The notes beneath the pieces are model-generated. The model searched no databases and was not told the origin of the DNA. It saw nothing but the letters and a program-made list of their open reading frames with translations. Source: Turnera subulata (Eukaryota > Streptophyta > Magnoliopsida > Malpighiales > Passifloraceae). From it: a stretch of 64,000 nt of DNA. The translations under genes were made by a program, and so were the position numbers. The stretch spans positions 144,938 through 208,937 of the forward strand of contig JAKUCV010000176.1 in the NCBI GenBank assembly GCA_028386065.3, in the 5' to 3' direction. Within the stretch, counting starts at the first letter, position 1; every line of letters starts with the position of its first letter. This document shows positions 24,407 to 60,720 of the stretch, piece after piece.

Positions 24407-24503
24407 CAGCCGACATGAGCAGATATACTTTTCACCTTTCCATGATACTTTGTTTAAAGATGTTTTGAACTGATTTTCCAACAGTAATACGTGTTTTTAA
24501 CCT

Positions 24504-24512
24504 TATAAATAG
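24504..24512 (+). promoter_or_regulatory. TATA box of solo LTR
   Basis: TATAAATAG lies 98 bp after the last palindrome. The equivalent spacing in both LTRs of the element at 42765-50831 is 97 bp. Confidence 0.75.
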
Positions 24513-25209
24513 AGCATGTAGGTCTCTGTTTTATATGTATCGACTCTCTACAATTTCAGGCATTCATTGTTATACATACATGAGCCAATATCATTGAGAA
24601 TTGAGAGTTGCCTTATAGAGCTTACTTTGTGTACTCATACCTACTCTTGAAGAGAGTTTTTGCTTTGAGTGACTCAATTGTAATCACACACCTTGAGGGA
24701 GGATTATTTCCTTGTAGTGAATTCATAGGAAGAGGGTCTTCTTTCTGTGGGAAAAGTCTTGAAGTGTTGAATCTTCAAGCAGGAGTTGTAAACGGTTTGT
24801 TAAGTACCCGGAAGCTTAACGGTGATAGTGGAATCTTCGAGAGAGTCTCTCGGAGGACTAGATTAGCCACACGGGTTGTGTGTGTGTGAACCAGTATAAA
24901 TCGGTTTGCCTTTCTCTCCTTTTTAATTCCGCAATTATTATTGTTTAAAGTTTTAATTAGTTCTTAATCGCTAATTCACCCCCCCCCCCCTCTCTTAGCT
25001 TGTTTGAGCTTACATAATTGTGCAGTATCTAAAAAAAAATGAACATTAATTTTTTTTTTTACTGTTAAAATAAACAAACTGCAAAAAAGTAAAAAATACA
25101 ACAACATAACAGATTATGAATTTCTATTGTATTTATGTCAATCCCACAAACCAAATTTGCATTCTCCCACTCACCTGAAAAATAACACAGTGTATTATCC
25201 TTCTTTCAT

Positions 25210-32373: not shown

Positions 32374-32805
32374 TCTTGGGTTATTTGTTTGGCATTTAAA
32401 GCTGTATGCGTGTATGCCTGCTGTTTTGATGTTGTTGTTGCACGGTGTATCATGATGATGATATCTTTGTTCTTGAGTGCCTGATTATGTGAACTGTGAG
32501 CCTATGTGATACGGTATGCCAGTTGAGCATGATATGTTGTTATGATTAAGAAATGATTATATGACTTTGTGGTTCGTGCAGTGACTTGAGGGCTGGAGAC
32601 ACGTATTTGAGAATAAGATATTAAATCCACACAACCGTGTTTGATCATAACGTATGGCACAACTCTTTAAGCATAATTGAGATTAACGAACTATAATAAT
32701 TCTACTGTGGGGCTGTTGACCGGTTGGTTTGAGCGGGAAGTGATACCCCTCGGGATTTCATGCGGGATAGCATGGTATATGCGGTTTAGCATATGGATTT
32801 GTGAT

Positions 32806-34127
32806 TGATAGCACAATAGACTTAAGCTAGAGGGGGGGTGAATAGCTTATGACCGAAAATTAAAAACTTTGCAGGAGATGAAGTGCGGAATTGAAAAATA
32901 GAAGGACACAAAAGATTTTTATACTGGTTCACACACAACTAATTTGTGGCTAATCCAGTCCTTCAAGGTACACTTGAAGAGTTCACTATCTACCGTTAAG
33001 CTTCCGGGTGCTTAACAAACCGTTTANNNNNNNNNNNNNNNNNNNNNNNNNNNNNNNNNNNNNNNNNNNNNNNNNNNNNNNNNNNNNNNNNNNNNNNNNN
33101 NNNNNNNNNNNNNNNNNNNNNNNNNNNNNNNNNNNNNNNNNNNNNNNNNNNNNNNNNNNNNNNNNNNNNNNNNNNNNNNNNNNNNNNNNNNNNNNNNNNN
33201 NNNNNNNNNNNNNNNNNNNNNNNNNNNNNNNNNNNNNNNNNNNNNNNNNNNNNNNNNNNNNNNNNNNNNNNNNNNNNNNNNNNNNNNNNNNNNNNNNNNN
33301 NNNNNNNNNNNNNNNNNNNNNNNNNNNNNNNNNNNNNNNNNNNNNNNNNNNNNNNNNNNNNNNNNNNNNNNNNNNNNNNNNNNNNNNNNNNNNNNNNNNN
33401 NNNNNNNNNNNNNNNNNNNNNNNNNNNNNNNNNNNNNNNNNNNNNNNNNNNNNNNNNNNNNNNNNNNNNNNNNNNNNNNNNNNNNNNNNNNNNNNNNNNN
33501 NNNNNNNNNNNNNNNNNNNNNNNNNNNNNNNNNNNNNNNNNNNNNNNNNNNNNNNNNNNNNNNNNNNNNNNNNNNNNNNNNNNNNNNNNNNNNNNNNNNN
33601 NNNNNNNNNNNNNNNNNNNNNNNNNNNNNNNNNNNNNNNNNNNNNNNNNNNNNNNNNNNNNNNNNNNNNNNNNNNNNNNNNNNNNNNNNNNNNNNNNNNN
33701 NNNNNNNNNNNNNNNNNNNNNNNNNNNNNNNNNNNNNNNNNNNNNNNNNNNNNNNNNNNNNNNNNNNNNNNNNNNNNNNNNNNNNNNNNNNNNNNNNNNN
33801 NNNNNNNNNNNNNNNNNNNNNNNNNNNNNNNNNNNNNNNNNNNNNNNNNNNNNNNNNNNNNNNNNNNNNNNNNNNNNNNNNNNNNNNNNNNNNNNNNNNN
33901 NNNNNNNNNNNNNNNNNNNNNNNNNNNNNNACCTTGTACAAATGGGTCCTAACTTCTCTTGCTCTTCTTTGCACTTCAACTCTTGATCATATCTTCACTT
34001 GAATTCTTGATCACTTTGGTTGAGTACTTGTTTGCTTGATTTCTTTTTGCTTCATCTTGGTTATGATCTTGGTTTGTCATTTATCAAAACCTGTAATAAG
34101 TGAACCATGAAGACATAGGTTCTAACA
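32806..34127 (-). mobile_element. Solo LTR, SIRE-like ACATCGATGT family (with N gap)
   Basis: Plus-strand text runs from TGATAGCACAATAG to GGTTCTAACA with a perfect TSD GTGAT (32801-32805, 34128-34132). Comparison with the left gypsy LTR at about 30366 shows the empty site. The minus-strand start (TGTTAGAACC...GGTTTTGATAAATGACAA) and the hairpin words GTTAAGC/GCTTAAC relate it to the LTRs at 42765 and 58886. The region that should hold the palindromes is unsequenced. Confidence 0.88.
33027..33930. other. Assembly gap (904 N)
   Basis: The run of N begins just after CTTAACAAACCGTTTA and ends just before ACCTTGTACAAA. The same two landmarks bracket the second gap and, in the intact LTR 58886-60720, bracket the palindrome array. 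Confidence 0.99.
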
Positions 34128-42062: not shown

Positions 42063-42118
42063 TTTGGTAGTGAAGCAAGGAATCTCCATTTGTGGATTAA
42101 CATCCAGGAGAAAAGATC

Positions 42119-42759
42119 TTGGCATTTGAGGGAAACAACATCAATAATGCACCCTTCTTCAATGGTCTCAACTTTCATCATTGGAAGTTTCGCATGAAGA
42201 CCATCCTTGAAGGAAAGGATCTTGAGATGTGGGAATTTTTAAATTCTTCTTACTCACGTCTAACCAAAGAGATGAAATCCTGGAGTGAAGCTGAAAGGAA
42301 GAAAGCCAAACTAGGTGCCCAAGCGAAGAATGAACTACTTTGTGGCATCAGTCAAGCCGAATTTGAAAAAGTTAGGTCATGCGAAATAGCACATGAGATT
42401 TGGAGTACTCTACGCATTGCGCATGAAGGAACTAACCAAGTCAAAGAATCAAAGATGAATCGGCTGATGAGAGAGTTCGAGCTTTTCCATATGTTGCCTG
42501 ATGAAACAATACAAGAACTTGATACAAGATTCACCATCTTGTGTAACAACTTGGCCTGTCTTGGCAAGACCATTACAAACAAAGAAAAGGTAACAAAAAT
42601 TTTTCGTTCTCTTCCTTCTGAATAGGAACCAAAGGTTACTGCTATTGAGGAAGCCAAAGACAAGAACACTCTCACTTACAATGATCTAATGGGGAGCCTC
42701 ATAGTTCATGGGTCAAAATTTGAAGAAGAGACAAAGAAAAAGAAGGACATAGCTCTCAA
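42119..42759 (+). pseudogene. SIRE-like gag, 5' part
   Basis: The frame opens with TTG at 42119 where an ATG is expected (FEGNNINNAPFFNGLNF follows), so the start codon seems lost. The UBN2-type gag core is present (WKFRMKTIL, EIWSTLRIAHEGTNQVKESK, LDTRF). TAG at 42623 stands where TGG fits (PSE-stop-EPKVTAI). The frame is then cut at codon KS by the nested element whose TSD GTCAA spans 42760-42764. It continues at 50837. Gag forms the virus-like particle in active elements. Confidence 0.85.
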
Positions 42760-43064
42760 GTCAATGTTAGGACTAATGCTTCCATGTTTCATTTCAGGGT
42801 TTTGATAATGACAAACTAACCAAAGCTCCATTCATGAATTCATTCCTTGAAGAAAAGCAAAAAGACATCAATCAATGAAGCACAAGTCTAAGACAAAGGA
42901 GTACAAGATTTGAAGCAACAAGGATGAAGATATATAGAGAGTTCATCTATAGGAAATCCTTGTAAATGGTAACTCAAGTACTCCAAGTTAATGCTCAAAC
43001 CAAAAATCATTTTCCTCATGCATTTCATAAATCATGTAAGTCATAAAACTGGTTTTTGAGTTCA

Positions 43065-43525
43065 AAACATCGATGTTCTTAGAACAACATCGATGTTGCA
43101 TCAAGTCGATTTTAAAATCTTTTTGGCAGTAGCAAGAAAACATCGATGTTGGATTATAAAACATCGATGTTCTTGTGACCGTTGGTCAAAACATCGATGT
43201 TTACAATCCAACATCGATGTTCATGAAAACCTGTCTTTGAAATAAAATTTTGCCGAAGCCAAAAAACATCGATGTTGGCCAATTAAACATCGATGTTTCA
43301 CAAAACATCGATGTTTCATTTTCCAACATCGATGTTCTGGCAAAGACCCTTTTTCATCATATTTTTGCGAAGCCAAAAAACATCGATGTTGCGATGAAGA
43401 ACATCGATGTTGTGTATGAAAACATCGATGTTCTAAAATGCAACATCGATGTTTTACTAGCCGTTGGCTCAATTATTTAAATGCAACGGCTAAACATCGA
43501 TGTTCTTGATCAAAACATCGATGTT
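43065..43525 (+). promoter_or_regulatory. Palindrome array, 16 ACATCGATGT sites (5' LTR)
   Basis: CpG centres at 43071, 43091, 43144, 43165, 43195, 43215, 43270, 43291, 43309, 43330, 43384, 43405, 43426, 43447, 43498 and 43519. Steps within pairs are 20-21 bp; recurrent longer steps are 72-75 bp (43071-43144, 43195-43270, 43309-43384, 43426-43498). The outer consensus is the 12-bp palindrome AACATCGATGTT. AACGG/CCGTT words lie at about 43179, 43460 and 43486. Confidence 0.92.
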
Positions 43526-43621
43526 GTGCCGTTATGGGCAGAAACCTTTTTCAGACAAACATGCTAAACTTTCATAAAGGTTTCAGAAATTGTTCCCAAT
43601 GATCATATGCATCTTTTAGAC

Positions 43622-43630
43622 TATAAATAG
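43622..43630 (+). promoter_or_regulatory. TATA box of 5' LTR
   Basis: TATAAATAG, 97 bp after the last palindrome; the hairpin chain starts about 200 bp downstream and so would lie in the transcript. Confidence 0.8.
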
Positions 43631-43820
43631 AGGCCTTAAACCTCATTTTCAGATTGATCAACTCACATCTACATTCAAGCATTCTTTGAAAATCATTCAA
43701 CAAATTTTTGAGCTATAACTTGTGAGAATTCTGAGTTGTTCAATAGAGCTTTCCTTTGTACTCATATCCACTCTATTAGAGAGTTTTGCTTGAGAGATTG
43801 TAAGTGTTATTCATACACCA

Positions 43821-44066
43821 CAAGGGAGGATTGTTCCCTTGAGAGAAGCCTTAAGGTGTGGTATCCTTAAGCAAGAGAGTAGGATTCTTGTGATTAGAAA
43901 TCCTAGAAAGTCTTGAAGTGAGGTATCTTCAAGCAAGTATATTGAGGTTCATGTGACTTGAACTCTCAGGTTGTAACGGTTTGTTAAGCACCCGTAAGCT
44001 TAACATAGATAGTGAAATCTTCAAGTGAGACTTGAAGGGCTGGATTAGCCACACTAGTAGAGTGTG
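43821..44066 (+). promoter_or_regulatory. Chain of about nine hairpins in R-U5
   Basis: Inverted repeats follow one another: CAAGGGA/TCCCTTG (43821-43841), CTTAAGG/CCTTAAG (43850-43871), TAGGATT/AATCCTA (43880-43905), CTTGAAG/CTTCAAG (43912-43933), GAGgTTCA/TGAACTC (43944-43965), GTTAAGC/GCTTAAC (43983-44004), CTTCAAG/CTTGAAG (44019-44037), GGCT/AGCC (44038-44050) and CACACT/AGTGTG (44050-44066). Loops are 5-12 nt; two read TGTGGTAT and TGAGGTAT. Related stems occur in the other LTRs of the family. Confidence 0.8.
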
Positions 44067-44193
44067 TGTGAACCAGGATAAATCTCTTGTGTCCTTCATT
44101 CTTTTAATTCCGCATTCAATTCCTGCTTATTTCGTTTTTATTCGATTATCGCTATTCACCCCCCCTCTAGCGAAGGGTCATTGTTCTAACAAT

Positions 44194-44206
44194 TGGTAGC
44201 GGAGCC
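44194..44206 (+). promoter_or_regulatory. Primer binding site
   Basis: TGGTAGCGGAGCC, two bases after the LTR end. Same variant as in both gypsy elements. Confidence 0.8.
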
Positions 44207-44246
44207 TAACTCTCTGAAAAACTTAACCGTTTGAGAGGTATTATCC

Positions 44247-45464
44247 ATGGCTTTTTCAAGTAATGTGTTTGCAGGAAACAATGAAGGACAGTCCGTCACC
44301 CGTCCACCATTGCTCAATGGCGCCAACTATACATATTGGAAGGAGAGGATGAGAGTCTTTATTCAATCCAACAACTTCACTCTCTGGCGGACAATAAAGA
44401 ACGGAGATCAAATTCCGACAAAGAGAGTTGGTGAAATTATGGTGGCTAAGACGGAAGAGGAGTATAATGCCGAGGACGTCAAGAAAGTTCAAAACAACTT
44501 CATGGCAATCAACATACTCCATTGTGCACTTAATCAAGAAGATTACCAAATGATTTCACGATGCACTACCGCCAAGGACATTTGGGATATGCTGGAAGTC
44601 ACCTATGAGGTAACAGAAAGTGATGATGAAACGAACTTCCAATGCCTCATGGCAAAGGAAGAAGAAGCAGAAGAGGTAAGTGATTCTGAACCTTCTAACC
44701 ATGATGAATTGCAAAACGCTTTTAATGAATTGTATGCTGAATATATTAAAATCTCTAAGATTCATTTAAAGCAAAAGAAACATATTGCTTCATTAGAAAA
44801 GAATCTAGAAGAGCTTACCTGTGAAAATGATAAATTGAAGGAAGAAAATAGGATTCTAGGCATGCCCAAAGAATCTGAATCATGTAAATCACTATATGAA
44901 CAAGTCACAGAACTTGAAAGAAAAACTAAGGAGTGTCCCTCATGCAATTCTTTGAATGAACAAAATGAGAAGTTATTATGTGAAAATGAAAAGCTTAGAG
45001 AAGAAAACAAGTTTTATGGGAAGAAGAGTGCTAACAAACCGGATAACTTAGAATGCACGACATGTAAACCCTTAAAGAAGCAAGTTGAAAATCTTGAGGC
45101 AACATTAAAGAAATTTAGCACCCCTCAGAAAAATTTAAATTCTATGCTAAACAATTTGCAATCAACTAAACATGGAATAGGTTTTAGAAACGAACCTAAA
45201 AGACCTAAAATCGAGCCTAGGAAGCATAAGGTTCAACCCAAGGGTCACCATGTTAGTAAAGTGCACAAATATGGACAGGATAATTATTATCAACCTAGAT
45301 GGATGCACAATCCAAATGTTATTTGCCATTACTGTAATAGAGTAGGACATATTGCTCCTGCTTGTTTTACTAGGCATAGACATTGGACTCGAAGTGAAGC
45401 CTATCGTCATCATGTCCCTAACACTCAAGGACCCAAAGAAATTTGGGTACCAAAAACCCATTGA
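44247..45464 (+). CDS. Gag of non-autonomous SIRE-like element, intact ORF with family-wide deletion
   Basis: 405 codons from an ATG in good context (ATCCATGG), 56 bp after the LTR. Residues 1-125 are the N-terminal half of a UBN2-type gag (PPLLNGANYTYWKERM, DIWDMLEVTYE). The frame then jumps directly to an acidic segment (DDETNFQCLMAKEEE) and a coiled-coil of about 150 residues with CENxKLxEEN heptads. Near residues 360-373 is a CCHC knuckle, CHYCNRVGHIAPAC, and the C terminus is GPKEIWVPKTH. Compared with the gag at 42119/50837 it lacks the second half of the gag core and the first knuckle. The minus-strand copy at 57464-58829 has the same deletion. In active elements Gag packages RNA; whether this short form does is unknown. 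Two further codon-size protease traces follow after the stop. Confidence 0.9.
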   Translation: MAFSSNVFAGNNEGQSVTRPPLLNGANYTYWKERMRVFIQSNNFTLWRTIKNGDQIPTKRVGEIMVAKTEEEYNAEDVKKVQNNFMAINILHCALNQEDYQMISRCTTAKDIWDMLEVTYEVTESDDETNFQCLMAKEEEAEEVSDSEPSNHDELQNAFNELYAEYIKISKIHLKQKKHIASLEKNLEELTCENDKLKEENRILGMPKESESCKSLYEQVTELERKTKECPSCNSLNEQNEKLLCENEKLREENKFYGKKSANKPDNLECTTCKPLKKQVENLEATLKKFSTPQKNLNSMLNNLQSTKHGIGFRNEPKRPKIEPRKHKVQPKGHHVSKVHKYGQDNYYQPRWMHNPNVICHYCNRVGHIAPACFTRHRHWTRSEAYRHHVPNTQGPKEIWVPKTH

Positions 45465-45503
45465 TTTGTTTTGCAGGTGTGCTTGAAGGCATCAAGTGTA
45501 CTT

Positions 45504-45533
45504 TAGTGCCTTGATTGCGGATGCTCCAAGCAC
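45504..45533 (+). pseudogene. Vestigial protease active-site motif at the pol deletion point
   Basis: In frame with gag, after its stop, the codons read stop-C-L-D-C-G-C-S-K-H. This is the SIRE protease start WYLDSGCSKH with TGG changed to TAG, TAC changed to TGC and DSG changed to DCG. Protease similarity ends right after it. The other family member retains WYLDCGCSK at 57398-57424. Confidence 0.8.
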
Positions 45534-45595
45534 ATAATCATGGAAGCATCCAAATTCGTAATTGATTCTTGGGGAATAAGCAAGCCGAGACATAA

Positions 45596-45703
45596 AAACA
45601 TCGATGTTTAGGAGCCAAACATCGATGTTGAGAGGACTTCAACTAGTATCATTCCCAACCGGCAGCATGGATCATCGATGTTTAGTATCAAAACATCGAT
45701 GTG
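45596..45703 (+). promoter_or_regulatory. Two palindrome pairs after gag
   Basis: Centres at 45602, 45623, 45676 and 45697 (steps 21, 53, 21; pair period 74). Directly after the last one is CAGGTAAGT, a perfect splice-donor consensus. Confidence 0.85.
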
Positions 45704-45941
45704 CAGGTAAGTACTCTAAACTTACTAAATTATTAACTTTGATGATTTGCGGTTCATGACAATTTCATCATACAAACAAACTAGAGTTTATTGATGTTCA
45801 TATCTTACAATCTTACAATACAATGACTCTTACGCACACTTTATATTACAATCATACTTAATAACATATCTTACAAAGACACATCTGAATAAAAACATGT
45901 TACACGCTCACACTAATTCATATGCTTATTACAATGCGCCT

Positions 45942-46625
45942 CTAACGATTGGGTTCAGCTGTTACAGTAAAACCATTAGGAGTATTGACTATGTTAACCC
46001 TAATGACATGACTCCAAGCAAACCACATCCCACCTGAGTTGTTCTGGCCAGGCACCTCAAAACGATGTGTTGGTGGAAAGCGAAGAGGAATATTTCCATG
46101 ATCTCCGGTTTGCTCCCATCGAGTCTCGGTGAGAAGAACCATGTTTGGTTTGTACTGGTTCTTCAAATCTCGCAGGATCCGAGCAAAGTCTTGGGAACGC
46201 GCTGTGATACCCCTGCAGTTCCATACCAAAAGGCGAACCTTTGGCCAAGTAGGCGCTAATCCAGTTACTCGAGGAATGCTCTGAGCAGTCATTGTGATCT
46301 GGTAGTGACTACCTTCATTCAGAGTCTGGCAGGCTGGTTCCAACTGAAGATGCTCAAACCTGTCAGAGATAAAAAACATGGTGGAATTCGCCGTACCATA
46401 ATAGGAAGCTCGCAGAGTTTGTTGATGATCTAGGAAAATGACTTCTTCCATAGGGGTAATAAAAAATCGGGACGAATAGATTTCGTCTACAAAGACAAGG
46501 CGAGGAATTCTTCCTAGCTCCTCTGGCAATGGCCCCTCTGGCTCATTCACGATACTAAAGGACAACCGATTTCTCCTTCCTACGTTTGCACCTTCAACGA
46601 AAAAGACGGAGGAAGGGGCAGGCAT
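45942..46625 (-). CDS. Antisense ORF with partial LINE-type endonuclease domain
   Basis: 227 codons, ATG at 46625. Residues 1-125 match nothing I recognise (FFVEGANVGRRNRLSF, MEEVIFLDHQQ). From about residue 130 it reads as the first part of an L1-type endonuclease/exonuclease/phosphatase domain: VRLLVWNCRGI, then MVLLTETRWE, then NSGGMWFAWS. These give the N and E of the active site. The ORF stops before the catalytic D and SDH blocks, so nuclease activity is not expected. A TATA-like CTATAAAAG on the minus strand at 46712-46720 lies about 90 bp upstream of the start, and the palindrome array at 47186-47701 lies beyond. It looks like a captured fragment with its own promoter. It could also be a relic that happens to be open. 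Confidence 0.6.
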   Translation of the reverse strand: MPAPSSVFFVEGANVGRRNRLSFSIVNEPEGPLPEELGRIPRLVFVDEIYSSRFFITPMEEVIFLDHQQTLRASYYGTANSTMFFISDRFEHLQLEPACQTLNEGSHYQITMTAQSIPRVTGLAPTWPKVRLLVWNCRGITARSQDFARILRDLKNQYKPNMVLLTETRWEQTGDHGNIPLRFPPTHRFEVPGQNNSGGMWFAWSHVIRVNIVNTPNGFTVTAEPNR

Positions 46626-47185
46626 TTTCTCTTTACTTTTGATTTTTTTTACTAATCTCTCTTTCTTTGAAGTTAGCTTATAGTTTTTCTGTCTAATGAG
46701 CTTAATCCCTGTCTTTTATAGAATCAAATGTGCGGTGTCATTCTTCTAAAGGCAGACCCCTACCACACTTGGCAGAGCTTAAAAGATTCTCTGCCAAATA
46801 GAAACGCCAAGTTCATTATTACTAACCTCCAATTTTGTAGCTAATCAAATATCTGTTTTGTTGAAAATTTAGGCCTAAATTGCATTATTGATCCGACACG
46901 GGATTTACTGTCTATTTAGCTAGGTATCGGAGACTATCAAAGTCCAACCGACAAGACAATTTCTCGAGCCCGGTGCACTGATGACAAGAAGAAAATTTCT
47001 CTTAGTGGCAGAGGGATACTTACCATCTCTTGAAATTGTCACAACGTTTTCATCTCCATAACTCGTGTATTATCCGTTGCTAATTTGAGCACCCGAGGCT
47101 CTACTAAATCTGTTTTGTAGGGACAGCTCGATTCGGACGACAAGCACAGTTGAACAAGCAAGGACCTCACTAAGCAAATAGCGAA

Positions 47186-47701
47186 AACATCGATGTTCCG
47201 CTGACCAACATCGATGTTGAATGCATCACACAAGTGGCAGAATGACAAAAACATCGATGTTTAGTATCGAAACATCGATGTTCAGGTAAGTCTTTCAAAT
47301 TCTTCCTCATAATATCGATGTTCAAAACACCAAACATCGATATTTGCACGTATGAGTTGATTTTCAAAAATATCGAGTGCTAAAAACATCGATGTTTTGA
47401 CACCAACATCGATGTTTAACCATAGTGCTTAACCATCAGATTGGCAGTATACCAACAACATCGATGTTTTCGTACAAACATCAATGTTTGCAAAAATGGG
47501 TCTTTTAGCCGAGAGCAAAAAACATCGATGTTTCAGTTAAAACATCGATGTTGGGAAGTTACCGTTTAAAAATATAGCCGTTGGTCCCAAAAACATCGAT
47601 GTTCTCTGAAAAACATTGATGTTGGAACGTTACAGTTTTAAAAAAAAATATAGTCGTTGGGGAGCCTCAACATCGATGTTTTGGGTGAAAACATCGATGT
47701 T
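47186..47701. promoter_or_regulatory. Internal palindrome array between divergent ORFs
   Basis: Sixteen sites in eight pairs, centres about 47191/47212, 47254/47273, 47314/47337, 47387/47407, 47461/47482, 47527/47545, 47594/47616 and 47674/47695. Four are decayed by one base (for example AACATCAATGTT and AACATTGATGTT). CCGTTGG/AACGGC words occur at 47562-47585 and 47717-47742. The array separates the minus ORF ending its upstream side at 46625 from the plus ORF at 47895. Confidence 0.88.
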
Positions 47702-47755
47702 GTGTCGTTAAAAACTAGCCGTTACTGCTCACAACGGCTAGCTTTTTGGCTCCTC

Positions 47756-47764
47756 TATAAAAAC
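47756..47764 (+). promoter_or_regulatory. TATA box for the 417-codon ORF
   Basis: CTATAAAAACTC, 55 bp after the last palindrome and 139 bp before the ATG at 47895. The intervening leader is very pyrimidine-rich, as in plant 5' UTRs. Confidence 0.7.
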
Positions 47765-47894
47765 TCAACTTTTTCTTCTCCTTCTCACCTACAATCTGAT
47801 TTCTTTCATCCTTTTACAATCTCCATACAACTTCCTTTCCTCTCTTGTCCATTTCCACTCCTTTTCCCAAATTCTTCTCCCTTTCCTATACACC

Positions 47895-49148
47895 ATGGCT
47901 AGTAGAAGAAGCTCTAAAGGCAAAGATCCTCTTCAAGAGCATCCCACCAAGAGAAGGAGCTCATCTAGCTCAGGGAACCAATACCCTGTGGAAGGAACTC
48001 ATATCTGGTTCACTTCCCGTTCACAGCTACATCGATACAACACCCTCTTTGCCAAAAGACTCATTGCACCTCCTAGATATCTACCTGATGAATATCCACA
48101 AGAAAAGCAATACACAAACCTACCCAGACTTCTTCAACAATCACACCTTTGGGAGTTTGTCACCAGGAGCAGACATGAGTACAATGCCGACTTCATCTGG
48201 GCATTCTACTCGACATTAACTCGGGAAGGAGAGGTTCTATCTGCTCAAATCAATGGAAAGGTCATCCAACTCACCTTGGAGCAATTCGGGGCATTCGCAA
48301 AATTGCCCGTCCAAGGGCACGATATATCCGGCTATGGGGGAGATCATTTTCTTACTCAGTATGAGATTCCTCTTCTTGCAGAGCTTGGCATCACAGAAGT
48401 AAAGAGGAATCGTTCCGGCCGTCCCACCATTCATTCGATTAATCCGGAATATCGTGTGCTGTTCTATCTTGTCACCCGTGTGATCAAACCACGAGCAGGG
48501 AGTCACACCACCATGACCATTGAAGACGAGAAGATTCTTCACGCCATTCTACACGGTGCACCCATTAATTGGGGACGACTCGTTTTCATGCACATGGCGG
48601 AACAGGCCAACACCGACCATCCACTGCCCTATGCGTTTCTGGTCACCGATATTCTGCTTAGCGCAGGTCTTAATCCGTTGGAAGACACCCTCACCACGGC
48701 AGCCAAGTCTTGGGCAATATCCGATGCCACATTCAGAACCGGACAAGCTGCTGAGGGAGCTCAACCGCCTCACCAACCCGCAGAGCAACAAGCCGAAGCA
48801 TCTCAAGCAGGCTCTTTCCTTGCTCTTCCTGCACCTGCTCCTCGACCTCCTGGCGCTACCCTCGACTCAATTGCGGCCACTCTACGCAGCTTAGGAAGGT
48901 CAATTGAAAGAATCGACATCGAAGTACAAAGGCAAGGACGTGACCTGCGTGCCTATTTTGATCACATCAACTACAATCCTCCACCATACTACCAAGGTTA
49001 CGATTTTGGTGGTAATGAGGATGATAATGATGATGAGGAGGATGAGGACTATGCTCCCATGGACATTGAGCAAGAAGAAGATGATGAAGAAGATGAAGAC
49101 CATGAGGATAATAATGATGATGATGATGACCTTAGCCCATCCTTTTAG
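47895..49148 (+). CDS. Envelope-like / putative plant transposon protein (Transposase_32-like)
   Basis: 417 codons from ATG in context ACCATGG. Residues 1-30 are basic and serine-rich (ASRRSSKGK, KRRSSSSSG), a possible nuclear signal. Residues 35-235 form a globular domain with FVTRSRHEYNADFIWAFYST, then GKVIQLTLEQFGAFAKLP, then NPEYRVLFYLVTRVIKP. This pattern resembles the plant-specific putative transposon protein domain (Pfam Transposase_32) that occurs in SIRE/Athila-type envelope-like ORFs. A Q/A/P-rich linker follows (265-315), then a short helix with LRSLGRSIERIDIEVQRQ (about 322-345), then an almost purely acidic tail (370-417). I see no signal peptide or membrane helix, so a true envelope role is doubtful. 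It sits between its own TATA box and the PPT. Confidence 0.75.
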   Translation: MASRRSSKGKDPLQEHPTKRRSSSSSGNQYPVEGTHIWFTSRSQLHRYNTLFAKRLIAPPRYLPDEYPQEKQYTNLPRLLQQSHLWEFVTRSRHEYNADFIWAFYSTLTREGEVLSAQINGKVIQLTLEQFGAFAKLPVQGHDISGYGGDHFLTQYEIPLLAELGITEVKRNRSGRPTIHSINPEYRVLFYLVTRVIKPRAGSHTTMTIEDEKILHAILHGAPINWGRLVFMHMAEQANTDHPLPYAFLVTDILLSAGLNPLEDTLTTAAKSWAISDATFRTGQAAEGAQPPHQPAEQQAEASQAGSFLALPAPAPRPPGATLDSIAATLRSLGRSIERIDIEVQRQGRDLRAYFDHINYNPPPYYQGYDFGGNEDDNDDEEDEDYAPMDIEQEEDDEEDEDHEDNNDDDDDLSPSF

Positions 49149-49375
49149 GATTTTTTTTTTGCTTTGTTTAAATTTATGTCTTCCATGTTTAAGTATCTTT
49201 TAAATTGAATCAAATGCTTCTTATTCTTGTTTCTTTTTGCTAATGACAAAAGGGGGAAAATAATCAAGTAAGTATATGCACCAAGTCAGGGGGAATCATG
49301 AATTGAAAAGTTGAAAAATATAGGGGGAATTAATCTCCCTTAAGAACTCATAAAACTTGGCATATACTAACATGA

Positions 49376-49457
49376 GTTTGTCATTATCAAAAAGGGGGAA
49401 ATTGTTAGGACTAATGCTTCCATGTTTCATTTCAGGGTTTTGATAATGACAAACTAA
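49376..49457 (+). promoter_or_regulatory. Polypurine tract flanked by inverted repeat
   Basis: AAAAAGGGGGAAAT ends at 49401, just before the 3' LTR. The arm TTTGTCATTATCAAAA (about 49378-49393) upstream pairs perfectly with TTTTGATAATGACAAA (about 49437-49452) inside the LTR, so the PPT-U3 junction would sit in the loop of a stem. Confidence 0.85.
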
Positions 49458-50831
49458 CCAAAGCTCCATTCATGAATTCATTCCTTGAAGAAAAGCAAAA
49501 AGACATCAATCAATGAAGCACAAGTCTAAGACAAAGGAGTACAAGATTTGAAGCAACAAGGATGAAGATATATAGAGAGTTCATCTATAGGAAATCCTTG
49601 TAAATGGTAACTCAAGTACTCCAAGTTAATGCTCAAACCAAAAATCATTTTCCTCATGCATTTCATAAATCATGTAAGTCATAAAACTGGTTTTTGAGTT
49701 CAAAACATCGATGTTCTTAGAACAACATCGATGTTGCATCAAGTCGATTTTAAAATCTTTTTGGCAGTAGCAAGAAAACATCGATGTTGGATTATAAAAC
49801 ATCGATGTTCTTGTGACCGTTGGTCAAAACATCGATGTTTACAATCCAACATCGATGTTCATGAAAACCTGTCTTTGAAATAAAATTTTGCCGAAGCCAA
49901 AAAACATCGATGTTGGCCAATTAAACATCGATGTTTCACAAAACATCGATGTTTCATTTTCCAACATCGATGTTCTGGCAAAGACCCTTTTTCATCATAT
50001 TTTTGCGAAGCCAAAAAACATCGATGTTGCAATGAAGAACATCGATGTTGTGTATGAAAACATCGATGTTCTAAAATGCAACATCGATGTTTCACTAGCC
50101 GTTGGCTCAATTATTTAAATGCAACGGCGAAACATCGATGTTCTTGATCAAAACATCGATGTTGTGCCGTTATGGGCAGAAACCTTTTTCAGACAAACAT
50201 GCTAAACTTTCATAAAGGTTTCAGAAATTGTTCCCAATGATCATATGCATCTTTTAGACTATAAATAGAGGCCTTAAACCTCATTTTCAGATTGATCAAC
50301 TCCCATATACATTCAAGCATTCTTTGAAAATCATTCAACAAATTTTTGAGCTATAACTTGTGAGAATTCTGAGTTGTTCAATAGAGCTTTCCTTTGTACT
50401 CATATCCACTCTATTAGAGAGTTTTGCTTGAGAGATTGTAAGTGTTATTCATACACCACAAGGGAGGATTGTTCCCTTGAGAGAAGTCTTAAGGTGTGGT
50501 ATCCTTAAGCAAGAGAGTAGGATTCTTGTGATTAGAAATCCTAGAAAGTCTTGAAGTGAGGTATCTTCAAGCAAGTATATTGAGGTTCATGTGACTTGAA
50601 CTCTCAGGTTGTAAAACGGTTTGTTAAGCACCCGGAAGCTTAACACTAGATAGTGAACTCTTCAAGTGAGTCTTGAAGGACTGGATTAGCCACAAGTTAG
50701 TTGTGTGTGAACCAGTATAAAAATCTTTGTGTCCTTCATTCTTTAAATTCCGCATTCAATTCCTGCCTATTTCCTTTTTATTCGATTTTCGCTATTCACC
50801 CCCCCTCTAGCGAAGGGTCATTGTTCTAACA
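49402..50831 (+). repeat. 3' LTR of non-autonomous element
   Basis: 1430 bp. It has the same 16 palindromes (about 49703-50163), TATA box at 50260 and hairpin chain. A patch at 50614-50745 differs from the 5' LTR and resembles the solo LTR at 32806. Confidence 0.95.
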
Positions 50832-50836
50832 GTCAA

Positions 50837-51850
50837 CACATGAGAGTGATTCCAAAAGTGATCTAGGTGTTGCCTTAATTACAAGGAGATTTGTGAAATT
50901 CATGAAAAGGAGAAACCTCAAGGAAAGAAACTTCAGAGGTGTGAAGGTTGATGAATCAAAGAAAGAGCAACTTTTGTGTTATGGTTGCAATCAACCCGGG
51001 CACATCAAGGCCGAGTGCCCCAACATACGAAAACCCAAGTTCAACAACTTCAAGAACAAGGGGAAGAAAGCAATGACTGCATGGGATGACCTTGATTCAG
51101 TTGATGAATCAGACGAAGAGGAATTGGCAAATCTTTGTCTTATGGCACAAGAAGAAAGAGAGGTAAATCATTCTAACTCATCTAGCTTTCCTTTTGATGA
51201 ACTATATGATGCATATGAAGAGTTATTTGAAAGCTTTAAAGCCATAGCTAAGACAAACAAAGCATTGAAAAGAAAAATTGATCTACTAGAATCTAAAAAG
51301 AAAGAGTGCATGATCAAAAATGAAGAAATTGCTAAAAGTCTGACTTTGTGCAATAATGGCTTTGAAGACGCCAAAGCGGATAAAGAAACTTTTGCTAAGT
51401 CAAAAAAGAATCTTGTGCAACAAATTGTTACATGTAAAGAAGAAAATACAAAACTTGCACATGAAAATTTAAACCTGAAAAGGACTGTAGAATCTCTAAA
51501 AAGTATGCTCGAAAAGTTTGATCATAGTAGTAAAGGTTTACATATGATACTAAGTCAACAAAGGCATACATTATAAAAAGTAGGTGTAGGGGCTACACAT
51601 CATGTGTGTGGACAGCATGTGAGTCCAACACCATTTTCAAAAATATGGAAAACTAAAAAGAATCATGAAGCTAAGTTCATTACACCTGTATCCAGTCATA
51701 ATGTCACGTGTCATTATTGCAAAAGGCATGGACACAAAATAAAAAATTGTATTTTTAGCAAGAAGCATTGTCCTATAAAATTTATGTGGGTACCTAAAGG
51801 TACCAATACTAACCTCCAAGGACCCAAGCTTGTGTGGGTACCAAAAACCT
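50837..51850 (+). pseudogene. SIRE-like gag, 3' part
   Basis: Continuation of 42119-42759 after the nested element. The long piece 50893-51576 has RRNLKERNFRG, the first knuckle CYGCNQPGHIKAEC, an acidic segment (SVDESDEEELANLCLMAQEE) and a coiled-coil. After a stop at 51576 the piece 51604-51852 has the second knuckle CHYCKRHGHKIKNC and two WVPK motifs (FMWVPK, LVWVPKT). This two-knuckle order is the reference that shows what the shorter gags at 44247 and 58829 have lost. Confidence 0.85.
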
Positions 51851-55358: not shown

Positions 55359-56932
55359 TGTTAGAACAATAGCCCTTCGCTAGAGGGGGGGTGAATAGCG
55401 ATAATCGAATAAAAACGAAATAAGCAGGAATTAAATGCGGAATTAAAAGAATGAAGGACACAAGAAATTTATCCTGGTTCACACACACTCTACTAGTGTG
55501 GCTAATCCAGCCCTTCAAGTCTCACTTGAAGATTTCACTATCTACGTTAAGCTTACGGGTGCTTAANNNNNNNNNNNNNNNNNNNNNNNNNNNNNNNNNN
55601 NNNNNNNNNNNNNNNNNNNNNNNNNNNNNNNNNNNNNNNNNNNNNNNNNNNNNNNNNNNNNNNNNNNNNNNNNNNNNNNNNNNNNNNNNNNNNNNNNNNN
55701 NNNNNNNNNNNNNNNNNNNNNNNNNNNNNNNNNNNNNNNNNNNNNNNNNNNNNNNNNNNNNNNNNNNNNNNNNNNNNNNNNNNNNNNNNNNNNNNNNNNN
55801 NNNNNNNNNNNNNNNNNNNNNNNNNNNNNNNNNNNNNNNNNNNNNNNNNNNNNNNNNNNNNNNNNNNNNNNNNNNNNNNNNNNNNNNNNNNNNNNNNNNN
55901 NNNNNNNNNNNNNNNNNNNNNNNNNNNNNNNNNNNNNNNNNNNNNNNNNNNNNNNNNNNNNNNNNNNNNNNNNNNNNNNNNNNNNNNNNNNNNNNNNNNN
56001 NNNNNNNNNNNNNNNNNNNNNNNNNNNNNNNNNNNNNNNNNNNNNNNNNNNNNNNNNNNNNNNNNNNNNNNNNNNNNNNNNNNNNNNNNNNNNNNNNNNN
56101 NNNNNNNNNNNNNNNNNNNNNNNNNNNNNNNNNNNNNNNNNNNNNNNNNNNNNNNNNNNNNNNNNNNNNNNNNNNNNNNNNNNNNNNNNNNNNNNNNNNN
56201 NNNNNNNNNNNNNNNNNNNNNNNNNNNNNNNNNNNNNNNNNNNNNNNNNNNNNNNNNNNNNNNNNNNNNNNNNNNNNNNNNNNNNNNNNNNNNNNNNNNN
56301 NNNNNNNNNNNNNNNNNNNNNNNNNNNNNNNNNNNNNNNNNNNNNNNNNNNNNNNNNNNNNNNNNNNNNNNNNNNNNNNNNNNNNNNNNNNNNNNNNNNN
56401 NNNNNNNNNNNNNNNNNNNNNNNNNNNNNNNNNNNNNNNNNNNNNNNNNNNNNNNNNNNNNNNNNNNNNNNNNNNNNNNNNNNNNNNNNNNNNNNNNNNN
56501 NNNNNNNNNNNNNNNNNNNNNNNNNNNNNNNNNNNNNNNNNNNNNNNNNNAAAACACATTTTGTGATTGAAATGATGCTATGAAATGCATGAGTAAAACT
56601 TGTTTTATTTTGAGCCAATGCCTAAGAGAAGTTGAGTGTTTTACCTTGTACAAAGGGGTCCTAACTTCTCTTGCTCTTTTTGCACTTTAACTCTTGACTT
56701 CAATTCTTGAGCAAGTTGTTCTTGACTTCACTTCTTTTTACTTGACATTGCCCTTGTACTTTTTGAGTTCCCAACTCATCTTTCTCTTCTTGCTTGTAGC
56801 TTCAAATTGATCACAATGTTTGAGCTCTTCTTCTTTGCTTGATTTCTTTTTGCTTCAAGGATGTCATCAATTGAGCCAAGGTTTGTCATTATCAAAACCC
56901 TAAAATGAAGCAAGGAGGCATGAGTTCTAACA
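55359..56932 (-). repeat. 3' LTR of minus element, with gap
   Basis: Both sides of the gap match 58886-60720 almost exactly. The last bases before the internal region are GTTCTAACA. Confidence 0.9.
55567..56550. other. Assembly gap (984 N)
   Basis: The equivalent interval of the partner LTR (about 59095-60338) is about 1245 bp and holds the hairpin region, TATA box and 22 palindromes, so the N run is probably about 260 bp too short. Confidence 0.95.
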
Positions 56933-56970
56933 ATTTCCCCCTTTTTGATAATGACAAACAACTGGAAGTA
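56895..56970 (-). promoter_or_regulatory. Polypurine tract and inverted repeat, minus element
   Basis: The minus strand reads AAAAAGGGGGAAATTG into the LTR. On the plus strand TTTGTCATTATCAAAA begins at about 56882 and its inverse TTTTTGATAATGACAAAC at about 56943, as in the element at 42765. Confidence 0.8.
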
Positions 56971-57213
56971 TATGCCAATTTTTATGAGTTTAACATAAGG
57001 ATAATTCCCCCTATGTATTTCAAATTGTGATTCCCCGTAACTATACTTCTTATTATCTTCCCCCTTTTGTCAATAGCAAAAAGAAATAATGATAAGAAGA
57101 GGTTGAGAAGTGCTTATGTAAGAAATAGGTGGAGCTTTGAACAAGTGCAACATATTATCTACACCTATACACTTCTATATGTGCCAAAATAAAAAATGTT
57201 AGAATGCTTAGCT

Positions 57214-57246
57214 GAACATCGATGTTGTGATACTCAACATCGATGT
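57214..57246 (-). promoter_or_regulatory. One palindrome pair after gag
   Basis: Centres at 57220 and 57241, 21 bp apart. The place corresponds to the two pairs at 45596-45703 of the longer family member. Confidence 0.85.
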
Positions 57247-57397
57247 ATTGACACTTCTGCTCAAATTTCGAAGCTCTTCATCATCCCTTTGTTCCCCCTA
57301 TCTTTTTGCCTAAATAAAGGGTACCTACAAAAACAACACTCATCCTTGCATTTCTACAAGAATTGATTAAGAACTTGGATGCTTCTTTGGTTATTTG

Positions 57398-57424
57398 CTT
57401 GGAGCATCCGCAATCAAGGTACCA
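57398..57424 (-). pseudogene. Vestigial protease motif WYLDCGCSK
   Basis: Nine codons of the SIRE protease start, unmutated except for DCG in the D-S-G position. The flanking sequence on both sides matches 45480-45580, so the pol deletion was inherited from a common ancestor. Confidence 0.8.
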
Positions 57425-57463
57425 AAGTACACTTGATGCCTTCAAGCATACCTGCAAAACAAA

Positions 57464-58829
57464 TCAAAGGGATTTTGGTACCCAAATCTTTTTGGGTCCT
57501 TGGTGGTTAGGAATATAGTATTGATGAGCATCTTCTTGAGCCCAATGCCTATGCCTAGTAAAACATACCGGGGCAATGTGACCTATTCTGTTACAATAGT
57601 GGCAAATGACATTTGGATTGTGCATTCTTCTAGGTTGGTTATAGGTATCATATTGCCTATGTTCATGCAATCTATCATACTTGTCTTCCCTAGGTATAAT
57701 CTTGTTTTCCCTAAATTGAGTCATATGTTTCCTAGGTTTAGTATATTGTAGCCTTTCATTTTTTAACGGTGCGTATATGTGATCTTGCAACGTTAGCATT
57801 TGATCTACCATTGTAAGCATACATTTTAGCATAGTGAACTTTTCCACTACTTGCATTTGGTTTGGCATTTTGAGCATATGACCTTCTATGATGAATACAT
57901 GATCTTGTGTCATGAACATGTGATCTAATATGATAAGTAGAAGATGAAGCATCATGTTTATGTGTCTTAGCATTAAGCACAGTAGGTTTGACATCATTTG
58001 ACACATTAGATGCACCTAATCCTTCTTTTTGTGTTGGACTTCTTTGTTGTCCTAGAAGAAGATTAAGACTATCTCTACCATTAGTAAACTTCTCTAATGT
58101 ATTCTTCAAATCATCAACTTGATGCTTAAGAGATTCATTCTCTTTTCCCAATTCAACACAAGAACATACATTTGAGGATATCTTCTCATTAAGTTCATTG
58201 CAAGACATATTAAGAGCATGCTTTTCTTTTCCAAGCTCATCAATTTTGCTTAACAACTCATCCTTATCATGTGATAATAATTCTACATTATTTTCTAGGG
58301 TCTTGTTCTGTTTCTTTAAGTTCTTATTAACATTTGAAACAGAAATGAATTTACTATACAATTCACTAAATGCATCTTGCAGCTCTTCAAATGTATAATC
58401 ATCATTCGAATAGGAAGTACTTACCTCTTCCGGAGATTCTTCATTTGCCATGCAACAGAGGTTGACAGTTTCATCTTGCTTGCTGTCGGTTTCCTCATAG
58501 ATGACTCCCAGCATTTCCCACATCTCCTTGGCCGTTGCGCAGTGCGAGATCATTTGATAGTCATTCGGATTGACTGCACATTGGAGCATGTGTATTGCCT
58601 TGGAGTGGTTTTCGATTCTTTGGATGTCATCTTCGTTGTACCCTGCTTCCGTCCTTGTCGGAACTTGAACGCCATTCTTTATCGTTAGCCAAGCTGCAAA
58701 GTTATTGGCTTGGATGAAGATTCTCATCCTTTCCTTCCAATATGCGTAATTTGTCCCGTCAAAGAATGGTGCACGGGTAGTGGATTGTCCTTCAATGATT
58801 CCTGCATACAAATAATTTGAACAAGCCAT
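57464..58829 (-). pseudogene. Gag of minus non-autonomous element, one frameshift
   Basis: ATG at 58829. It runs in one frame to about 57760, then a single-base shift near 57770-57790 continues it to 57464. It has the same layout as 44247-45464: a gag N-terminal half (APFFDGTNYAYWKERM, EMWEMLGVIYEE), a direct jump to an acidic part (QDETVNLCCMANEES), a coiled-coil of about 150 residues, then a histidine/arginine/serine repeat region (RSHVHDTRS, RSYAQNAK, RSNANVARSH). A CCHC knuckle CHYCNRIGHIAPVC and a GPKKIWVPKSL end complete it. The repeat region is absent from the longer element. Confidence 0.88.
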
Positions 58830-58871
58830 GGAAATTTACCTCTCAAACGGTTAAGTCTTTCAGAGAGTTAG

Positions 58872-58884
58872 GCTCCGCTACCAA
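58872..58884 (-). promoter_or_regulatory. Primer binding site, minus element
   Basis: The plus strand reads GGCTCCGCTACCA, that is TGGTAGCGGAGCC on the minus strand, one or two bases from the LTR. Confidence 0.8.
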
Positions 58885-58885
58885 T

Positions 58886-60720
58886 TGTTAGAACAATAGC
58901 CCTTCGCTAGAGGGGGGGTGAATAGCGATAATCGAATAAAAACGAAATAAGCAGGAATTAAATGCGGAATTAAAAGAATGAAGGACACAAGAAATTTATC
59001 CTGGTTCACACACACTCTACTAGTGTGGCTAATCCAGCCCTTCAAGTCTCACTTGAAGATTTCACTATCTACGTTAAGCTTACGGGTGCTTAACAAACCG
59101 TTACAACCTAGGAATTCTAGTCACAAGAATCCTAAACCCTGAAAGTTCAAGTCACATGAACTTCAGCTCTCTTGCTTGAAGATACCTCACTTCAAGACTT
59201 TCCTAGGAATTCTAATCTCAAGAATCCTAGACTTGCTTAAGGATACCACACCTTAAGACTTCTCACACAAGAAGATATACCCTCTTCTTGTGAATCTAAA
59301 CAAGGGAACTAACCTCCCTTAAGGTGTATGAATACACAATCACTCAGAACAAAAGACTCTCTCAAAGAGCAGGTATGAGTGTACAAGTGAAGCTCTAAAA
59401 GGCAACTCTCAAATCCTCAATAGGATATTGGCTCAACAAAGATTGATTTGAATGTATGAGATGAATGCATGTAAGTAGAGAGTTGATTCATTTTGAAACA
59501 TAGCTAAAAATGCTCAATTTATAGCTCTGAGAAGTTATAGAGCCGTTTTAAATCCACCCAAAAACAGCCTTAAACAAAACATAGTGGGTGCTGAAAAAGT
59601 TGTCTGCTACAACGGCAAAACATCGATGTTTTCACTTTAAACATCGATGTTTTAGCCAGCAATTTTAAATTATTGCTCCAACGGCTAGTAGAACATCGAT
59701 GTTGCATTTGAGAACATCGATGTTTTCATACTCAACATCGATGTTCTCCAATTCAACATCGATGTTTTTGAGCTTCGCAAAAATATGATGAAAAAGGGTT
59801 TATGCAAGAACATCGATGTTGGAAAATGAAACATCGATGTTTTTTGGCTTCGGCAAAATTCATTTTGAAATCAATTATCAGAACATCGATGTTTCCAATA
59901 GAACATCGATGTTTTTCCGCTTCTGCCAAATTTTGGAAAACCTTGAAGAAATCACAACATCGATGTTTTAATGACAACATCGATGTTTTGACCAACGGTC
60001 ACAAGAACATCGATGTTTTATAGTCCAACATCGATGTTTTAGAGCTACTGCAAAATTCATTTTGAAACCAAATATCAGAACATCGATGTTGCCATTGGAA
60101 CATCGATGTTTTTCCGCTTCTGCCAACTTTTGTAAAACCTTGGAAAAACAGAACATCGATGTTTAAAATCACAACATCGATGTTTTGATCGGGCAGACCA
60201 TTTTTAAGTGCAACGGTCATGAGAACATCGATGTTTGGGATGCCAACATCGATGTTCAGACCTTACTGCCCGTTTTGGAAGAAGTTTTAAGGCAGCAACA
60301 TCGATGTCTAAACTTACTACATCGATGTTCATTATTTGAAAACACATTTTGTGATTGAAATGATGCTATGAAATGCATGAGTAAAACTTGTTTTATTTTG
60401 AGCCAATGCCTAAGAGAAGTTGAGTGTTTTACCTTGTACAAAGGGGTCCTAACTTCTCTTGCTCTTTTTGCACTTTAACTCTTGACTTCAATTCTTGAGC
60501 AAGTTGTTCTTGACTTCACTTCTTTTTGCTTGACATTGCCCTTGTACTTTTTGAGTTCCCAACTCATCTTTCTCTTCTTGCTTGTAGCTTCAAATTGATC
60601 ACAATGTTTGAGCTCTTCTTCTTTGCTTGATTTCTTTTTGCTTCAAGGATGTCATCAATTGAGCCAAGGTTTGTCATTATCAAAACCCTGAAATGAAGCA
60701 AGGAGGCATGAGTTCTAAAA
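58886..60720 (-). repeat. 5' LTR of minus element (complete)
   Basis: 1835 bp. On the minus strand it has the U3 array at 59618-60329, a TATA box near 59515-59522 (CTATAAATTGAG), and a hairpin chain at about 59030-59310. That chain includes an extra stem CAAGAAGA/TCTTCTTG around TATACCC (plus strand) at about 59269-59291. Confidence 0.93.
59618..60329 (-). promoter_or_regulatory. Palindrome array, 22 ACATCGATGT sites
   Basis: Centres at 59624, 59645, 59697, 59718, 59739, 59760, 59814, 59835, 59887, 59907, 59961, 59981, 60011, 60032, 60084, 60104, 60157, 60178, 60229, 60250, 60302 and 60323. Pair-to-pair steps are mostly 72-75 bp. TCCAACGGCTA at 59677-59687 is a perfect match to the MSA consensus YCYAACGGYYA, and CCAACGGTCA occurs at about 59993. 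Confidence 0.92.

Follow-up and report, generated by a model that had tools for sequence, protein, structure and literature searches.

Phased palindrome arrays as candidate regulatory binding sites in a Sirevirus-like Ty1/copia family of Turnera subulata

Introduction

Why does a family of LTR retrotransposons keep a single 10-bp palindrome, ACATCGATGT, in long rows of exact copies? The question arises from a window of 64,000 nucleotides of DNA (the entire stretch analyzed here) from Turnera subulata, a rosid in the family Passifloraceae, in which two elements with both LTRs, referred to as a and c, hold most copies of this palindrome. For Sireviruses, Bousios et al. (2010) reported palindromic repeated motifs (RM) that precede the TATA box in the LTRs and recur ahead of the envelope-like (ENV) gene; an internal ENV promoter was argued for by these authors and not conclusively identified (PMC2829016). 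The function of the Sirevirus palindrome arrays and the expression of plant ENV-like genes were stated to be open questions in 2010 (PMC2829016) and in 2012 (PMC3414828), and among the matches listed in a search of open-licence papers no later publication settles either of them. The elements presented here may serve as clean test material, as a single 10-bp site occurs in 16–22 exact, mostly phased copies before two presumed promoters of one element, and the TATA box ahead of the ENV of element a is readable. Should a single dimeric factor govern both promoters, its identity would tell whether the family exploits a host regulator or carries its own.

Results and Discussion

Composition of the elements

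The coordinates of the elements and their features are collected in Table 1. Between the LTRs of element a, 16 of 1422 aligned positions differ, with a further 12 gap columns. Where both LTRs of element c can be read, they agree fully over 208 bp and at 99.5% over 380 bp. Both insertions are therefore young. Neither the list of open reading frames nor a motif scan revealed a pol in a or c. Both elements carry gag and a protease stub with the motif DCG, where DSG is usual, and the stretch around the stub is 82% alike over 306 bp (45279–45584 in a, 57345–57649 in c). Possibly, pol was lost before a and c diverged, which would make them members of a long-lived non-autonomous lineage. The linker array of element a is interrupted by sequence containing an ORF that matches an endonuclease (PF03372) weakly, with a score under the curated cut-off; we read it as a probable LINE remnant.

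Table 1. Coordinates of the elements, LTRs, palindrome arrays and associated features in the window.
Feature	Position	Strand	Remark
Solo LTR	23561–25014	+	Older, diverged; tentative boundaries, from the preliminary description
Array of solo LTR	23869–24405	+	14 exact and 2 one-mismatch sites
TATA box, solo LTR	24504–24509	+	98 bp past last palindrome
Element a	42765–50831	+	GTCAA common to both flanks
5' LTR, element a	42765–44191	+
LTR array, 5' LTR of a	43067–43524	+	16 exact sites
TATA box, 5' LTR of a	43622–43627	+	97 bp past last palindrome
gag ORF, element a	44235–45464	+	PF14223, 27.2 bits against a cut-off of 27
Linker array of a, left part	45598–45702	+	3 exact and 1 one-mismatch sites
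Linker array of a, right part	47187–47700	+	12 exact and 4 one-mismatch sites
Candidate pre-ENV TATA box	47756–47761	+	Within CTATAAAAA, between linker array and ENV-like ORF
ENV-like ORF, element a	47895–49148	+	Intact, 417 aa; PF20167 above cut-off
Polypurine tracts, element a	49251–49400	+	Four AGGGGGAA, 5' of the 3' LTR
3' LTR, element a	49403–50831	+
LTR array, 3' LTR of a	49705–50162	+	16 exact sites
Element c	55359–60720	-	TTGGC common to both flanks
3' LTR, element c	55359–56932	-	N run 55567–56550 at expected array position
Palindrome pair, internal region of c	57216–57246	-
gag, element c	57464–58835	-	Two overlapping frames; the longer has PF14223
5' LTR, element c	58886–60720	-	3' end (58886) has poly-C signal; primer-binding site follows
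TATA box, LTR of c	59518–59523	-	96 bp past last palindrome
Main array, 5' LTR of c	59620–60328	-	22 exact ACATCGATGT

Several features place these elements close to the Sireviruses. The CA/ATTGG heptamer at the junction of LTR and internal region is present as CA-ATTGG in a and c. Sireviruses have identical polypurine octamers (AGGGGGAG, of which AGGGGGAA is a variant), and AGGGGGAA occurs four times in a and four times in c; the last one of a starts at 49393, 10 bp before the 3' LTR, while one of the four in c precedes the palindrome pair. The C-rich integrase signal CACCCCCCCTCTAGCG, found in Sireviruses at about 21 bp from the 3' end of the LTR, lies near the LTR ends at 44157, 50797, 55378 and 58905. 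An ENV-like gene, which many Sireviruses have in the linker, is present in element a. The Sirevirus primer-binding ninemer TATCAGAGC, however, is not matched, since a and c both have TAGCGGAGC, which agrees in seven of nine bases; the 16-bp primer-binding region of Sireviruses is itself not invariant, with 92.7% identity (PMC2829016). Because the ninemer differs at two of nine positions and there is no pol for a phylogeny, the elements are labelled a Sirevirus-like Ty1/copia family. The attribution to a SIRE-like family in the preliminary description is supported at that level, given the octamers, the C-rich signal, the CA/ATTGG junction and arrays that follow the RM plan.

Some further observations concern the surroundings of these elements. 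The primer-binding site TTGGTAGCGGAGCC, to be compared with the published Sirevirus sequence TATCAGAGC, is located at 44193 in a and at 58871–58884 in c, and occurs also at 31047. The 5' LTR of c starts with TT rather than TG (60718–60720), despite the TTGGC at both flanks of the element. Element a itself was apparently inserted in the gag of another copia element, as an ORF with a PF14223 gag domain ends before it and a zinc-knuckle ORF lies after it (42101–42625 and 50830–51576). Both N runs of the window (33027–33930 and 55567–56550) are found at the expected array positions of two further LTRs of the family, whose pieces flank them (32804–33024 and 33931–34125; 55359–55566 and 56551–56932), so that drafts of this kind may understate array counts. 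The published draft of Turnera subulata was built from short reads with mate-pair scaffolding (PMC9862265).

Number and conservation of the palindromes

The window holds 85 exact copies of ACATCGATGT, against an expectation of 0.048 under a dinucleotide model, a count that had been proposed as a genome-wide check and is here given for the window; the next commonest 10-bp palindrome has four copies. The 85 sites comprise five arrays and one extra pair. All 54 sites in the LTRs of a and c (16 + 16 + 22) are exact, and neither one-mismatch nor two-mismatch variants of ACATCGATGT exist in or near these arrays. The palindrome arrays are thus a confirmed observation, and the counts given beforehand for each LTR of element a (16) and for the LTR of element c (22) are reproduced. 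The 16 palindromes reported for the solo LTR, by contrast, are reached only if two one-mismatch sites are added to the 14 exact ones. The internal region of a has 20 sites between gag and ENV (15 exact, five with one mismatch). This internal array, which stands before an intact ENV-like ORF, and the pair in element c had been missed in the preliminary description, from which the published RM parallel and the strong RNA folding are likewise absent.

The bases around the sites differ between the LTR types. In the LTRs of a and c, A precedes the site in 37 of 38 cases and T follows it in 37 of 38, while an A at position -2 (27/38) and a second T after the site (7/38) are less regular. Among the 16 sites of the solo LTR, the two bases before the site are G (10) and A (15), and the two after it are C (12) and C (15). 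The proposed distinction between GA...CC and AA...TT outside the inner 10 bp is therefore roughly right, except that the A at -1 is common to all types.

Substitutions are distributed unequally between palindromes and spacers. In two aligned stretches of LTRs a and c, palindromes have 0/80 and 0/40 mismatches and spacers 22/138 and 6/41 (Fisher p = 3e-5 and 0.026), which sums to 0/120 against 28/179. A third block (a 446–532, c 828–891) was excluded from these sums due to its poor alignment, with nine gap columns within a palindrome; its mismatches are 0/21 and 8/42 (p = 0.04). Between the solo LTR and c, the array ends differ at 1/40 palindrome and 31/64 spacer positions (p = 1.6e-7). The alignments of a, c and the solo LTR were anchored by the palindromes, and these mismatch tests consequently flatter them; the 54 of 54 exact sites without near-misses are an alignment-free count that this anchoring does not affect. 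When the palindromes are masked, the longest block gives no difference between palindromes and spacers (p = 0.83), because towards its end the alignment lost register. On their own, the two LTRs of element a (differences at 0/160 palindrome, 3/298 spacer and 13/964 other positions) prove nothing about constraint. In addition, the arrays share ancestry, the two LTRs of a being copies and the LTRs of a, c and the solo LTR being related, so that sites and spacings are not independent. With these qualifications, the substitution comparison across the LTR types of the window agrees with the earlier view that the spacers have diverged around almost intact palindromes, the latter being far more conserved.

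The CpG content points in the same direction, with retention in the arrays, as had been stated for the central CpG of the palindromes, and depletion in the rest of the LTR. Observed/expected ratios are 1.59 (a), 1.31 (c) and 1.06 (solo) in the arrays and 0.25, 0.26 and 0.48, respectively, in the remaining LTR; the spacers have ratios of 0.56–0.86. Of the 36 sites in the linker of a and in the solo LTR, seven carry a single change each, which in six cases is C>T or G>A, a bias expected from methylated cytosines. A mutational cold spot was rejected as an explanation, as these sites do mutate. Within element a, 5/20 linker sites are changed compared to 0/32 LTR sites (p = 0.006, the 32 LTR sites not being independent since both LTRs are near-copies), which suggests a weaker constraint before ENV.

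Spacing and helical phase

Adjacent spacings were collected from 70 intervals in six stretches (the 5' LTR of a, LTR c, the solo LTR and three linker pieces), with the 3' LTR of a excluded as a copy of the 5' LTR. A spacing of 20 bp occurs nine times, 21 bp 30 times and 51–55 bp 22 times, with nine others; as described before, sites thus form pairs 20–21 bp apart (39/70). The recurrence of many pairs every 72–75 bp in the LTRs also holds, for 4/9 intervals in LTR a, 8/11 in LTR c and 6/7 in the solo LTR; pair-to-pair distances in the right linker array vary between 61 and 77 bp. Most spacings follow the helix, as had been claimed: over the 70 adjacent spacings the phasing reaches R = 0.83 at 10.5 bp, with a best period of 10.65 bp. 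The 29 long spacings alone give R = 0.68, a value matched by none of 20,000 jittered sets.

Counted up to 160 bp within LTRs a and c, the solo LTR and the right part of the linker array, pairwise distances show maxima at 21, 43, 52, 63, 73, 94, 115, 125, 135 and 146–147 bp, close to multiples of 10.5 bp; these include the two distances (21 and 73 bp) for which a periodicity check had been suggested. No peak appears near 31, 84 or 105 bp, and minor spacings of 18, 30, 40, 45 and 57 bp are off the 10.5-bp phase. The 73-bp rhythm is in part a result of inherited unit length. The ratio of indels to substitutions between a and c is 3:28 in the arrays and 20:92 just downstream (p = 0.41); pooled with solo versus c, the ratios are 3:60 and 32:174 (p = 0.03). 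These indel counts do not prove a constraint on spacing.

Promoters and companion motifs

In line with the stated position of the arrays upstream of the LTR promoter, the TATA box lies 96–98 bp past the last site in all three LTR types. Before ENV, the last site of the linker array ends at 47700, CTATAAAAA starts at 47755 and the ATG is at 47895, which puts a TATA box at 55 bp past the last site. The motif CTATAAA is expected 0.028 times in this stretch and the looser TATAWAW 0.18 times; considering the latter value, the pre-ENV TATA box alone is modest evidence. The leader before the ENV ATG consists of 81% pyrimidines, and the last units of the linker array and the LTR array are 87% alike over 45 bp.

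The spacers also contain short recurrent words. CCGTT occurs three times in a, four times in c and three times in the solo LTR, against a shuffled-spacer expectation of 0.15–0.35. Among the ten LTR spacers with this word, it lies exactly 8 bp past the palindrome in eight and 4 bp past the final palindrome in two; the right linker array has three CCGTT at other distances. CCGTT is the reverse of AACGG, the core motif of the mitosis-specific activator element, to which MYB3R proteins bind. No paper combining this element with LTRs was found among open-licence publications. A second spacer word, GC(C/A)G(A/T)AGC, is present twice in a and four times in c, with none in the solo LTR or the right linker array.

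The ENV-like protein

Pfam recognizes only PF20167 in the ENV-like protein of element a and no DNA-binding domain. Counted from its ATG, the protein stays below the usual threshold for transmembrane segments, with a maximum hydrophobicity of 1.29; its N-terminus is basic, whereas its C-terminus is acidic, with a net charge of -29 over 52 residues. The frame is still open upstream of the ATG, and including this part would bring in a hydrophobic stretch (1.73). Protein searches yielded three relatives, all from Turnera subulata, the best with 96% identity over 41% of the query; all three share its N-terminus or have a similar one, which supports the start codon at 47895. A bacterial match (E = 0.6) was set aside, and the best sequence match in the PDB (E = 0.2) is not meaningful, leaving the protein with no solved relative there. 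Two structure models, with mean pLDDT values of 38.3 and 45.9, are too poor to use due to the lack of relatives. Neither the array of LTR a nor the ENV-like protein has a match among plasmid sequences. For Sireviruses, ENV-like genes with transmembrane and coiled-coil domains have been reported, and it was noted that they may not be true envelope genes (PMC3414828).

Relation to known repeat systems

The arrays share their general plan with the RM boxes of Sireviruses. RM boxes have at least eight palindromes per element in the upper LTR before the TATA box, with extra copies upstream of ENV; here there are 16, 22 and 16 sites per LTR (two of the last with one mismatch) and 20 (15 exact) before the ENV of a. 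The likeness extends to high copy number, CpG richness and array starts at 200–400 bp from the LTR start (302, 392 and 308 bp here) (PMC2829016). Differences exist as well. The number of 16–22 sites per LTR exceeds the maximum of 14 in Table 3 of PMC2829016, a TATA box is found before ENV, and paired two-turn spacing is absent from the RM descriptions compared. A CGG-CCG core occurs in 12 of the 13 published RMs and the exception, Tnd-1, is also counted as an RM by the authors (PMC2829016), whereas the core here is ATCGAT. The kind of array is hence already known from Sireviruses; new are the sequence of the site, the number of up to 22 sites per LTR, the pairing and phasing, the CCGTT 8 bp after some pairs, and the TATA box with pyrimidine-rich leader before ENV. 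The family is a testable RM variant, with its own sequence and spacing and with a likely promoter before the ENV-like gene.

Three other systems invite comparison, namely the tobacco element Tnd-1, the VANDALs, which are DNA transposons, and the Tnt1/Tto1-type retrotransposons with their tandem U3 activator repeats. The latter resemble the present family in having copia LTRs whose activators are repeated and in part symmetric, but in few copies, in another lineage and with another sequence. Box I of Tnt1 is mentioned in PMC2829016. The RM of Tnd-1, ACAATCGATTGT, contains ATCGAT and is the sole one of 13 without CGG-CCG; together with ToRTL1, Tnd-1 also has polypurine octamers ending in A (PMC2829016), as do all eight of a and c. 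In contrast to element a, Tnd-1 has eight copies, no ENV gene and no linker copies (PMC2829016). As Tnd-1 alone in that paper combines both traits, the ATCGAT core and the octamers ending in A are hints that Tnd-1, a and c may form a sub-lineage. The VANC targets of VANDAL transposons are likewise short sequence-specific motifs in dense noncoding arrays of one transposon family that change between relatives (PMC5735166). Yet their binder is known, the motif is not described as palindromic in that account, and their repeat units often diverge together (PMC5735166), while here the motif is exact and the spacers diverge.

Candidate functions of the arrays

We consider it probable (roughly 70%) that a dimeric protein binds the arrays in a cooperative manner, along one side of the helix and ahead of both promoters. 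The arrays would then be cis-regulatory clusters of binding sites of the RM type, each ACATCGATGT being bound by a putative homodimeric, sequence-specific protein. As pairs are two helical turns apart and many of them repeat about every seven turns, the bound dimers would lie on one DNA face and could cooperate upstream of the TATA box. The sites, the TATA box and the pyrimidine-rich leader before ENV may bring the genomic RNA and the ENV mRNA, the latter presumably transcribed from the TATA box at 47756, under one regulator. We infer binding, cooperativity and activation from what the DNA of one window with three related LTR types displays: the sites, their conservation and phasing, their place before the TATA box and the sequence common to LTR and linker. 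The suggestion of selected binding sites for a dimeric protein, made beforehand, fits the conserved palindromes, the retained CpG, the helical spacing and the position before the promoter.

Other explanations do without a dedicated protein. The rows could be recent copies of one unit, too young to have diverged, and LTR c does contain a recent partial duplication (59805–60188, 197-bp period, 1.9 copies, 86% matches). This duplication does not explain the arrays. Within pairs, the 11-bp spacers show a mean pairwise identity, over their inner nine bases, of 0.29 (a), 0.33 (c) and 0.46 (solo); because these spacers are so poorly conserved, homogenisation of whole units fails to explain the exact palindromes. 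The site is also exact in LTRs a and c though 21–29% of the aligned positions differ just outside the arrays, an argument limited by the last part of the LTR, which differs at only 5%. Neutral tandem amplification, contradicted by unlike spacers beside identical sites, was rejected as hardly credible, and with it the single very recent amplification that had been named as one of two possible refutations of the binding-site reading. Alternatively, the arrays could act by nucleosome positioning, or as a CpG island that determines promoter methylation, which would suit the CpG kept in the arrays and depleted outside, the distance peaks at 73 and 146–147 bp (half and whole nucleosome core) and the definition of CpG islands by RM clusters (PMC2829016). 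However, neither role requires ten exact bases or perfect two-fold symmetry, and the spacers, with CpG ratios of 0.56–0.86, vary freely; we regard this possibility as very improbable. It is also unlikely that the palindromes are kept for structure, as DNA hairpins or cruciforms or as U3 RNA stems (for dimerisation or packaging) that the host reads as a source of small RNAs. The 741-nt array region folds as RNA at -286.6 kcal/mol, compared to -168.8 ± 6.0 in 20 shuffles (z = -19.7), two paired sites with their 11 intervening bases make a good-sized hairpin, and in maize the palindromes of Sireviruses have been reported to be hotspots of small RNAs (PMC5311732, PMC10760457). Yet repeated palindromes fold strongly whatever their use, phasing at about 10.5 bp over 147 bp is a property of double strands, and structure alone would permit compensatory change, so that the identical sequence of LTR and linker sites argues against it as the sole cause.

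A further possibility is that the element encodes the binder itself. The ENV-like protein would in that case be a nuclear, dimeric palindrome binder rather than an envelope protein. Comparable to the VANC proteins of VANDAL transposons, it would in a sequence-specific manner activate the LTR and its own promoter, or release them from silencing, and copies without pol and ENV would be trans-activated passengers under selection to retain their sites. The same palindrome stands before the LTR promoter and the ENV gene, and the ENV of a is intact, with the charge distribution and missing transmembrane segment described above. Sirevirus lineages have different palindromes (PMC2829016, Table 3), a difference that co-evolution of palindrome and protein would explain, and VANC targets are short arrayed noncoding motifs that co-evolve with their protein (PMC5735166). 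Against it count the outcome of the Pfam search, the missing solved relative, the unusable models, a hydrophobic stretch that translation from further upstream would include, and VANC motifs for which no palindromic character is described in PMC5735166. Moreover, four published RM-bearing Sireviruses have no ENV (PMC2829016), nor does the young element c with its 22 exact sites, although both objections would fail if such copies were trans-activated. A role of the ENV-like protein as binder is thus quite unlikely, and no paper linking a Sirevirus envelope to DNA binding was found among open-licence publications.

As for the site itself, none of the matches listed for ACATCGATGT in the literature concerns plant transposons by title, and no open-licence paper on ATCGAT palindromes in Copia LTRs was found. 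Among viral contigs, a single locus (L001, 6500–6540) shows the paired pattern, with ACATCGATGT twice at 22 bp; its ORFs are phage-like and the pair lies inside one ORF, where a short peptide repeats, and it was rejected as a coincidence. Within the window, a 68-bp unit with GGTATACC palindromes forms two separate arrays of its own, at 4402–4541 and 11317–11451.
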